This document shows positions 16,769 to 18,754 of a DNA stretch of 64,000 nucleotides, piece after piece; position 1 is the first letter of the stretch, and each line of letters begins with the position of its first letter. The stretch comes from Halorussus marinus (lineage in GTDB: Archaea; Halobacteriota; Halobacteria; Halobacteriales; Haladaptataceae): contig NZ_SBIV01000002.1 in assembly GCF_004765795.1 (NCBI RefSeq), positions 124,001 through 188,000 on the forward strand. The letters are read 5' to 3'. The translations under genes and the position numbers were made by a program. A model generated the notes under the pieces. That model was given only the letters and a program-made list of their open reading frames with translations, was not told where the DNA came from and made no database searches.

Positions 16769-18004
16769 ATGGTGCGCAACTACGCGGAGCTCCACGACCC
16801 GAACGCCGAGTACACGATGCGGGACCTCTCGTCGGCGTCGATGGGGCTGGACCGCGAGCGCGGCGACCGCGAGGTCGAGATCACGGACGTCCAGACCACG
16901 ATGATCGACGGGAACTTCCCGTGGACGCTCGTGCGCGTGTACACCGACGCGGGCGTGGTCGGGACCGGCGAGGCCTACTGGGGCGCGGGCGTCCCCGAAC
17001 TCGTCCAGCGGATGAGGCCGTTCCTCGTCGGCGAGAACCCCCTCGACATCGACCGACTGTACGAGCACCTCGTCCAGAAGATGTCGGGCGAGGGCTCGAT
17101 CGAGGGCGTCACCGTCACCGCGATCTCGGGGATCGAGGTCGCGCTCCACGACCTCGCCGGAAAGCTGCTGGGCGTGCCCGCCTACCAGCTACTCGGCGGG
17201 AAGTATCGCGACGAGGTGCGGGTGTACTGCGACTGTCACACCGCCGACGAAGCCGACCCCGAGGCCTGCGCCGACGAGGCCGAACGCGTCGTCGAGGAAC
17301 AGGGCTACGACGCGCTGAAGTTCGACCTCGACGTGCCCTCGGGCCACGAGAAGGATCGGGCGAACCGCCACCTCCGGAACCCCGAGATCGACCACAAGGT
17401 CGAGATCGTCGAGGCGGTCACCGAGCGCGTGGGCGACCGGGCGGACGTGGCCTTCGACTGCCACTGGACGTTCTCGGCCGGGAGCGCCAAGCGACTCGCG
17501 ACCGCGTTAGAGGCCTACGACGTCTGGTGGCTCGAAGACCCCGTTCCGCCGGAGAACCACGACGTCCAGAAGAACGTCACCCACTCGACGACCGTGCCGA
17601 TCGCGGCGGGCGAGAACGTCTACCGCAAGCACGGCCAGCGCCGCCTCCTCGAAGAGCAGGCGGTCGACATCGTCGCGCCCGACATGCCGAAGGTCGGCGG
17701 GATGCGCGAGACCCGCAAGATCGCCGACGTGGCCGACACCTACTACACGCCGGTCGCGATGCACAACGTCTCCTCGCCGGTCGCCACGATGGCCTCCGCC
17801 CACGTCGGCACCGCCATCCCGAACTCGCTTGCGGTCGAGTACCACAGCTACCAGCTCGGCTGGTGGGAGGACCTCGTCGAGGAGGACGTCATCGAGGACG
17901 GCTACATCGAGATTCCCGAGGAGCCGGGGCTCGGCGTGACCCTCGACATGGACGTCGTCGAGGAGAAGATGGTCGCCGGCGAGACGTTGTTCGACGAAGC
18001 GTAG
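16769..18004 (+). CDS. gad: D-gluconate dehydratase-like enolase-superfamily enzyme
   Basis: 411 residues, mandelate racemase/muconate lactonizing subgroup. Metal ligands visible are D230 (AFDCHW), the Glu of WLEDP and the Glu of AAGENVYR; a catalytic His is in MHNVSSP and a catalytic Lys region in DALKFDLD. The N-terminus MVRNYAELHDPNAEYTMRDLS matches haloarchaeal gluconate dehydratases. It dehydrates gluconate (possibly also galactonate) to 2-keto-3-deoxygluconate in the semi-phosphorylative Entner-Doudoroff pathway. The last codons and stop lie inside the first hairpin of the palindrome array. Confidence 0.87.
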   Translation: MVRNYAELHDPNAEYTMRDLSSASMGLDRERGDREVEITDVQTTMIDGNFPWTLVRVYTDAGVVGTGEAYWGAGVPELVQRMRPFLVGENPLDIDRLYEHLVQKMSGEGSIEGVTVTAISGIEVALHDLAGKLLGVPAYQLLGGKYRDEVRVYCDCHTADEADPEACADEAERVVEEQGYDALKFDLDVPSGHEKDRANRHLRNPEIDHKVEIVEAVTERVGDRADVAFDCHWTFSAGSAKRLATALEAYDVWWLEDPVPPENHDVQKNVTHSTTVPIAAGENVYRKHGQRRLLEEQAVDIVAPDMPKVGGMRETRKIADVADTYYTPVAMHNVSSPVATMASAHVGTAIPNSLAVEYHSYQLGWWEDLVEEDVIEDGYIEIPEEPGLGVTLDMDVVEEKMVAGETLFDEA

Positions 18005-18018
18005 CTTCGTCGGGCTCG
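17989..18018 (+). repeat. 30-bp direct repeat, copy 1 (over the gad stop codon)
   Basis: A 30-bp sequence identical to 18087-18116. It contains the palindrome CGACGAAGC-GTA-GCTTCGTCG (17992-18012); the gad stop codon (18002-18004) is in its loop and stem. The offset between copies is 98 bp. Confidence 0.9.
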
Positions 18019-18148
18019 CGGAGCTTGCTCCGCGGCGTTCGACCCGGCCTAAGCCGGGTCAAACCGGCGAATCTTCGATTCGACTCGTTCGACGAAGCGT
18101 AGCTTCGTCGGGCTCGAAAATCTCCGATCGGAGCCGTTCGACGGCTCC
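17992..18148. repeat. Array of seven palindromes (hairpin cluster)
   Basis: Consecutive perfect inverted repeats: 17992-18012 (9-bp arms, gta loop), 18017-18034 (8 bp, tt), 18041-18060 (8 bp, ctaa), 18068-18082 (6 bp, ttc), 18090-18110 (9 bp, gta, a copy of the first), 18122-18133 (CTCCGATCGGAG) and 18130-18148 (8 bp, tcg); the last two overlap and exclude each other. Linkers are similar: ggctcg, gcgttcg, actcgtt, ggctcg. It could end gad transcripts, encode a structured RNA, or be a haloarchaeal palindromic repeat element. It encodes no protein. Confidence 0.9.
18087..18116 (+). repeat. 30-bp direct repeat, copy 2
   Basis: Identical to 17989-18018, but outside any gene, with the same internal 9-bp hairpin at 18090-18110. 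Confidence 0.9.
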
Positions 18149-18220
18149 GTCTCGACCGTCTGAAAACACCGCGTGGGACGTGGGTCCCGAGATTCTTCGA
18201 CGGAGGAGACCGGATGCGCG

Positions 18221-18754
18221 CTACTGAACGAGCGATTCGAGGCGTTTGCGGAGGTCTTTTGCCGCGTTTGTGACCCGTCGCCGACGGCGGGATTTGGCAT
18301 CGACCGTCGTGTCGTGGCTCTCGATCCAACGGCGCATCGTACTGCTACCGGCTTCCCGGTCGATGCCGACCTGCCGGATGTGTTTGATCGGGTGGCGCAG
18401 CCAGTTGTACTCCTCGTGGGCGAACACGTCGAGATACTCCGGCGAGTGGGCGATGAGGATGACGTGGAGCTGTCTGTCGGCCAGCCGTGACTGTCGATAC
18501 GTCCAGCTACCGTTTGGCTCCGCTCCGACCGGCGGCCGGTGGTACCACGCCAGCGGGTCCCACTCGAACCCGTGTTCTCTGAGCGTCTCCGTGAACTCGT
18601 CCAGCGGTTGCTCGATGGTGCCGACGTATTCGGTGTCCAGAAGGCGGTACTCGGGCTGGCCGAAAGTGCGCGCGAGTCGGGTGAGCGAGGGCCCGAGTCG
18701 CTGTCTCACGAGGTAGGGAACGTCCGGTTCGAGAGTTTCGACGATGCTCCGCAT
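18221..18754 (-). CDS. Unrecognised haloarchaeal protein, 177 aa
   Basis: I recall similar uncharacterised haloarchaeal proteins but no function. Visible features: an N-terminal helical part (VRQRLGPSLTRLARTFG), a WDPLAWYHRP segment, GSWTYRQSRLADRQLHVILIAH, then HEEYNWLRHPIKHIRQ, and a strongly basic C-terminus (AKSRRRRRVTNAAKDLRKRL). It is much less acidic than its neighbours. No membrane segment. The hairpin array lies just 3' of it on one side, and a gene-free 230 bp on the other. The basic tail would suit nucleic-acid contact; this is inference. Confidence 0.65.
   Translation of the reverse strand: MRSIVETLEPDVPYLVRQRLGPSLTRLARTFGQPEYRLLDTEYVGTIEQPLDEFTETLREHGFEWDPLAWYHRPPVGAEPNGSWTYRQSRLADRQLHVILIAHSPEYLDVFAHEEYNWLRHPIKHIRQVGIDREAGSSTMRRWIESHDTTVDAKSRRRRRVTNAAKDLRKRLESLVQ

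Follow-up and report, generated by a model that had tools for sequence, protein, structure and literature searches.

The window, by which we mean the whole stretch of 64,000 nucleotides of Halorussus marinus DNA that was analysed and whose closest relatives are Halorussus sequences, contains a gad-like gene whose 3' end runs into an array of hairpin-forming repeats. The best NCBIfam matches of the encoded protein are gluconate/galactonate dehydratases, below the equivalog cut-offs, and the last gad codons serve as the 5' arm of the first hairpin. The features are listed below, with bit scores from covariance model R1, which was built from 50 such units; asterisks in peptide endings mark stop codons.

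16769..18004, + strand: gad-like gene for an enolase-superfamily sugar-acid dehydratase of 411 aa, ending LFDEA* (PF13378, 5e-65; PF02746)
18002..18004, + strand: gad stop codon TAG, in and beside the loop of hairpin A of unit 1
17989..18036, + strand: unit 1, 48 bp, with the gene end FDEA* in hairpin A (17992-18012), linker GGCTCG and hairpin B (18017-18034); R1 60.9 bits
18037..18086, + strand: unit 2, 50 bp, with the displaced end FDPA* (TAA 18050-18052), hairpin A (18041-18060) and hairpin B (18068-18082); R1 50.4 bits
18087..18135, + strand: unit 3, 49 bp, with the displaced end FDEA* (TAG 18100-18102) and hairpin A (18090-18110); R1 51.7 bits
18136..18150, + strand: start only of a degenerate fourth unit (GTTCGACG..., in-frame stop lost)
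18221..18754, - strand: convergent downstream gene for a 177-aa protein without family match, outside the array

The first-pass annotation had described seven tight palindromes within 157 bp behind gad, and all seven are present as perfect inverted repeats where it placed them.

17992-18012: palindrome 1, arm 9, loop 3
18017-18034: palindrome 2, arm 8, loop 2
18041-18060: palindrome 3, arm 8, loop 4
18068-18082: palindrome 4, arm 6, loop 3
18090-18110: palindrome 5, arm 9, loop 3
18122-18133: palindrome 6, arm 6, loop 0
18129-18149: palindrome 7, arm 9, loop 3, spanning the border of units 3 and 4

Only 0.57 would be expected (mean of 3000 composition-matched shuffles of the segment; maximum 4), and the palindrome density is the highest anywhere in 464 kb of the window's genome, the sequence on which, along with pattern and model searches, our statements on the whole genome rest. 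The RNA folding z-score of the array is -7.0 for the + strand and -8.2 for the - strand. The motif GTTCGAC recurs at 17989, 18037, 18087 and 18136, so that three units of 48, 50 and 49 bp and a remnant lie in tandem. The seven palindromes are not independent of one another but supply the hairpins of this tandem, which holds about 3.3 units of ~49 bp; the likeness of the linkers, which had been noticed at first, is the register of this repeat. Each unit consists of hairpin A, which contains a copy of the gad end (FDEA or FDPA plus a stop codon), a linker, and hairpin B. Unit 1 overlaps the real gad stop codon, so that stem 1, contrary to the claim of no coding potential, is partly coding; nor do all arms differ, the stems of palindromes 1 and 5 being identical. 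Unit 3 matches unit 1 identically over 30 nt, only unit 2 departs from the host gene end, and no T tract follows the array.

The overlap of the last two stems had been taken for a possible RNA switch. Palindrome 6 has a zero loop, however, so that as RNA only 4 bp could pair, and in relatives the same slot holds an ordinary hairpin B (AAAATC..GATTTT). Compared with the units at L005, L006 and L092, the hairpin B slot of unit 3 (18117-18133) has decayed, its AAAATC arm being retained and the partner replaced. Palindrome 6 therefore looks like a decayed stem, not half of a switch, and the switch was rejected.

Within the window's genome the stem pattern occurs at this locus only, R1 matches outside gad are weak, and a search of 20 relatives found the module nowhere in Halorussus except behind gad. 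Among 80 gad loci of named species, units of ~49-53 bp lie behind gad in Halorussus, Haladaptatus, Halomicrococcus, Haloprofundus, Halorientalis, Halovivax, Halohasta, Halegenticoccus, Halogranum, Haloferax, Natrinema, Natronorubrum, Natronoglomus and others, and about half of the species have no array there. Strong R1 matches came from 51 of the 116 Halobacteriales genomes searched and from 21 of their 44 genera. All 57 top loci of the 13- and 116-genome searches lie directly behind a gad-family gene, paralogues at other places included; the model was trained on gad units, so part of this specificity is built in, but dispersed relatives did surface at lower scores. These sit behind a few other genes that likewise end in [LV]F[DE]..stop, namely those of Halovivax dockerin proteins, a 4Fe-4S subunit gene of the window's genome and one Haladaptatus gene. 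The earlier idea of a haloarchaeal palindromic repeat family that grows by modules holds for the family and for its modular growth, but the family is tied to the gad end and not dispersed. The orientation of the next gene is unlinked to array presence (+/- 24/15 with array, 22/12 without). Viral contigs and phages contained no copy of a unit, and two plasmid (megaplasmid) matches again lie behind MR/MLE genes.

Several observations were made beside this distribution. In the window's genome, a nitrate/DMSO-reductase beta-subunit-like gene that ends FDDA* has one two-hairpin unit (L164, about 1940-2040; G000:C8:115361-115412), and GTTCGACG is found again at the start codon of the gene next to it. 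In Halovivax and Natronoglomus (L162, L170, L219, L227, L233), gad-like units are found at genes for secreted dockerin-type proteins that end LFDSL*, LFESL* or LFNSL*, and one of these cases has a 9-bp stem formed from the gene end. Many dispersed A(A)ATC-NNN-GATT(T) hairpins resemble hairpin B alone, but they are part of other arrays and were rejected as copies of it. A second, dispersed family of hairpin arrays in Halorussus has constant linkers and variable stems, TCGAAAATC-nnn-GATTTTCGGGATGKGGCGAATC-nnn-GATTCGCAACAGCTCG-[variable stem]-CGGTGG (L113, L121, L115, L112 and others; 18 pattern matches in genome G002). Short hairpin pairs with constant flanks, CGTCACCGCCTC-[stem]-TCGACGGTTCCT and CTCGTCGTGATC-[stem]-TCATCA-[stem]-AACGACTACGCT, occur at several places of the window's genome (in the G000:C2 sample, ownA 41715 and 41778, ownB 264673-264756 and 289965-289992).

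Genome-wide, stop-codon palindromes with arms of at least 7, counted at gene ends followed by a gap of at least 60 bp, are not enriched (5 of 218 gene ends against 3.4 in shuffled sequence for the window's genome; 2 against 2.4 for Natrinema). Nor is the echoing of gene ends enriched among protein genes (5/800 against 30/2400 controls, at most 2 mismatches); exact gene-end copies were found only for gad and one 6-phosphogluconate-dehydrogenase-like gene among the protein genes scanned. The latter, in the window's genome (ownB 231634-232540), has an exact ~60-nt copy of its 3' end region ~160 nt further on, without strong hairpins.

Selection for structure over sequence, the simplest reading at first sight, is borne out by the stems themselves. 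Two-sided changes are seen at 12 of the 18 pairs of the 50-unit alignment, and 91% of its cells pair, with a covariation score of 0.434 as compared to 0.177 for shuffled and 0.07-0.10 for slid controls, and when whole 3' arms were permuted between units, the observed pairing was reached in 0 of 500 trials for hairpins A and B, in first and later units alike. The 5' arm of first units is coding sequence, which the 3' arm tracks, as with FDAT in Halorientalis and FDES in Natronorubrum. Pairing was better in the first unit than in the last in 20 of 32 cases, which is not significant (p 0.11). Since G-U and A-C mismatches are about equally rare (42 and 31 over all units; 24 and 11 in later units), the pairing gives no clear pointer to a one-strand RNA. 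A poly-T tract follows the array at 16 of 45 loci and a poly-A tract at 1 of 45, and the arrays therefore probably lie inside the gad transcript.

A role of the hairpins in gad mRNA, for 3' end formation, exonuclease protection or regulation, with pairing selected while the sequence drifts, would account for the strong covariation and the stable fold, for T-tract terminators that lie beyond the arrays and not inside them, and for stop codons in GNRA-like loops. In Haloferax volcanii, moreover, many termination sites are preceded by hairpins, and one structure of this kind accounts for the termination of 59% of transcripts (PMC7237163). The structured RNA or mRNA 3' stabiliser proposed earlier keeps its compensatory changes, but an Rfam search of the array gave nothing at the gathering score (best E 0.31), G-U shows no clear preference over A-C, and the number of units is not constant even between close relatives. 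Together with the absence of an array from about half of the species, the lack of a T tract behind the window array, and the displaced in-frame stops, C-terminus swaps and aspS and tRNA arrays described below, which it leaves unexplained, this makes an mRNA function quite unlikely as the explanation of the array, although such a function need not conflict with an exchange of gene ends. Covarying hairpins after stop codons, it should be cautioned, need not be functional RNAs.

The content of the units is that of gene ends. An in-frame stop follows within six codons in 36 of 46 displaced units when read in the gad frame, as against 0 and 9 in the other frames and 13% in a chance model, and units farther from the gene have it less often, the fraction being 1.00 for first, 0.90 for middle and 0.69 for last units. 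The endings read in displaced units are FDEA*, FDEE*, FDAA*, FDPA* and FD*. Among these, FDEE*, FD* and FDAA* are the actual C-termini of gad or gad paralogues in other species, and units can carry ends unlike the host's own, such as FDEE* in FDEA genes.

An independent set of arrays follows aspS, which in 400 kb of Natrinema is the one further gene whose end is echoed and forms a strong stop-codon hairpin. Displaced copies of its end, DRQRLSP*, are present at 15 of the 31 loci inspected, in units that are mostly about 70-95 bp long and laid out as in gad. Relative to their own gene end the copies differ at 144 synonymous and 20 non-synonymous codons, AGY-TCN serine swaps included; the copy finder accepts synonymous variants in the main, with 3 other mismatches at most, and thereby favours synonymous counts. 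This divergence of coding type is plain in the copies, and such a ratio with so many changes would not be expected for neutral copies. The last 8 aspS codons are only 0.48 identical, at same-residue codons of close relatives, as compared to 0.60-0.96 in 102 windows of the gene body. The displaced copies have thus changed in the manner of genuine gene ends, and the simplest view is that they did so in other lineages and were stacked afterwards. Arrays of aspS with stop-codon hairpins were seen in many Natrialbaceae and other haloarchaea (Natrinema zhouii, L204:18243-19900; further loci L271-L273, L275, L277, L278, L280, L282, L283, L290, L293 and L298). Hairpin arrays in which the linkers are constant and the perfect stems variable also lie behind haloarchaeal tRNA genes (L215, L223 and L230, tRNA-Phe; L224, tRNA-Ala; L109), with one to three copies of the tRNA 3' end in L215, L223 and L224 and none detected behind L230. 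In Haloferax, tRNA 3' ends, the classical integrase targets, are echoed downstream.

A quasi-palindromic gene end (TTCGACGAA) could in principle be copied, and its hairpins perfected, by slippage and template switching, with neither function nor exchange. The gad end is itself palindromic, and the perfection of quasi-palindromes is a known mutation type (PMC3820800). Yet FDEE* units in FDEA genes, near-identical units in different genera, a hairpin B and conserved linkers that are not derivable from the gene end, and the predominance of synonymous change in aspS copies render such a by-product highly improbable, and we disfavour it.

Turnover of whole units can be followed in Haloferax, where genomes with 97-98% identical gad differ by exact units at the gene-proximal end and the gad C-terminus alternates between FDEA and FDEE; the species pairs in these comparisons are not independent. 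Locus L306 ends FDEA* and has zero units, whereas L307 has one 53-bp FDEE* unit followed by a displaced FDEA* end, and this unit is the only gap of at least 15 nt in a ~4-kb alignment. One 55-nt unit separates L300 from L303, and between L302 and L305 the difference is exactly 104 nt, or two units, in both cases adjoining the gene. The gad genes of H. gibbonsii and H. prahovense are 98% identical, with the 30 nt before the FD codons identical, and end FDEA* and FDEE*, respectively. Unit-precise gain or loss with a swap of the C-terminus is thus directly apparent at the gene-proximal side. At the far side, six volcanii-like genomes have an FDEA-type gene end or its remnant and then a T tract, the expected look of an ancestral end and terminator. 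The Haloferax differences could be losses instead of gains; L306 may have lost its unit, because L307 and L310 share a similar one, and deletion by ordinary recombination between repeats is easy. Among the genomes available, none was a sister of the window's with a homologous flank. Beyond the genus, one Halogranum unit is identical to a Haloferax unit at 48 of 50 positions, while gad third positions are 0.74 identical.

Haloarchaea recombine promiscuously and are polyploid, and homologous exchange of array DNA between species combined with tandem duplication is the main rival to a dedicated system. A gene-end array would have arisen by duplication, its units being shuffled by unequal crossing-over with foreign gad-array DNA with no dedicated recombinase, and unit variation would look coding-like because the units were once gene ends elsewhere. 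Near-identical tandem copies at the Haloprofundus locus L042 amount to plain tandem duplication, units recur across genera, their loss between direct repeats is expected, and interspecies recombination and gene conversion are reported for Haloferax. Changes that are unit-precise without donor flanks, the bias toward the gene-proximal end, and a single 53-bp unit common to two genera whose flanking units and gene bodies have diverged all speak against this process, which we consider unlikely, albeit by no means negligible.

The reading that we favour, at a little better than an even chance, is that the array is a stack of exchangeable gad 3' ends, resembling an attachment-site array without genes and transcribed as a 3' UTR. 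Each unit of ~49-53 bp opens with a copy of the last codons and stop (GTTYGACGARGCGTAR = FDEA*, or FDEE*, FD*, FDAA*, FDPA*), which folds as hairpin A and places the stop at the loop; a short linker and hairpin B come next. The unit nearest the gene is the one in use, for the C-terminus as well as the stop codon. On gain of a unit at the gene, the former gene end would be shifted downstream and persist as a non-coding copy; when one is lost, an older end would come back into use. Units would arrive from gene ends of other lineages through site-specific, attachment-site-like recombination at gene 3' ends that may recognise hairpin shape, not sequence, and the array would be transcribed as the gad 3' UTR with no role there required. 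Units may be mobilised by a site-specific recombinase or through homologous exchange; the viral contigs, phages, plasmids and gad and aspS loci examined yielded neither a recombinase nor a circular intermediate or free unit.

Scars of ordinary integrative elements using tRNA or gene-end integrases, whose bodies were deleted and whose displaced attR copies were left behind, would share much of this behaviour, as an element that inserts at a gene 3' end rebuilds the gene and pushes its former end away, Haloferax tRNA 3' ends are echoed downstream, and archaeal att sites are 40-60 bp long and mostly in tRNA 3' ends (PMC8371274). For random deletion remnants, however, the units are too even in length (48-53 bp for gad) and too well conserved in hairpin B, and a full-length element is absent from every gad or aspS locus read; we judge such scars very unlikely.

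Going further than stacked exchangeable ends, we speculate only tentatively, and at well under an even chance, that gene-less two-hairpin DNA units of ~50-75 nt, dumbbells if circular and single-stranded, may move freely and insert site-specifically at conserved gene ends (gad, aspS, tRNAs). They would be recognised by shape like integron attC, each would bring a replacement gene end, and they would build CRISPR-like ordered arrays that record past insertions. If the favoured reading of stacked exchangeable ends is right, conserved archaeal genes routinely have their protein C-termini and mRNA 3' ends swapped by tiny exchangeable units, the displaced ends are an ordered record of past exchanges beside the gene, and the units would be among the smallest mobile DNA units known and would link attachment sites, palindromic repeats and 3' UTR structure. 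Haloferax offers a direct test ground, since single units already separate species whose gad genes are 97-98% identical. No description of such arrays was found among open-access papers, and novelty is provisional.

No known family tested fits the array, as the defining tests of REP elements, CRISPR, Rfam families and ordinary integrative elements failed. Bacterial hairpins directly after stop codons have been described (PMC8355165), and 3' UTR hairpin clusters and intrinsic terminators share this position and, where they are structured RNAs, the compensatory changes found here; unlike them, the window array consists of tandem homologous units with displaced stop codons and has no U tract. REP elements, BIMEs and REPINs (GTAG- or CGTC-tagged) are also short palindromes clustered 3' of genes, but they are defined by a conserved stem sequence and an unpaired terminal GTAG/CGTC tag (PMC3733652), whereas the stems here vary with compensatory changes, and GTAG, where present in units, is the stop-codon loop and not a terminal tag. 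Nor is the array high-copy or dispersed; it is bound to one gene family and holds a gene end with its stop codon, so that a REP family was rejected on both copy number and tagged stem. CRISPR and casposon target arrays show polarised growth beside a fixed gene end or leader and a repeat-plus-variable layout; here the variable part is a palindrome, not a spacer, and the repeated part diverges by synonymous codons, and a CRISPR array of near-identical repeats with unrelated spacers was likewise rejected. Integron attC sites resemble the units in that structure is conserved over sequence, in being palindromic and in forming arrays that grow from one end; the units are shorter, without cassette genes or any coding sequence of their own, and their hairpins have 3-4 nt loops and no bulged bases. 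Attachment sites (attL/attR) at tRNA and gene 3' ends differ in that the array units are ~50 bp, gene-less, many in tandem and built of two structure-conserved hairpins; between the att-like copies, which are 48-55 bp apart, there is only hairpin B and no recombinase-bearing element. What the array has in common with them is a gene 3' end replaced by an incoming copy with the old end displaced downstream, which appears here in the in-frame displaced stops, the Haloferax C-terminus swap and the comparison of empty and occupied loci, whether by gain or by loss, as well as tandem occupation and the echoing of tRNA genes, the classical targets.
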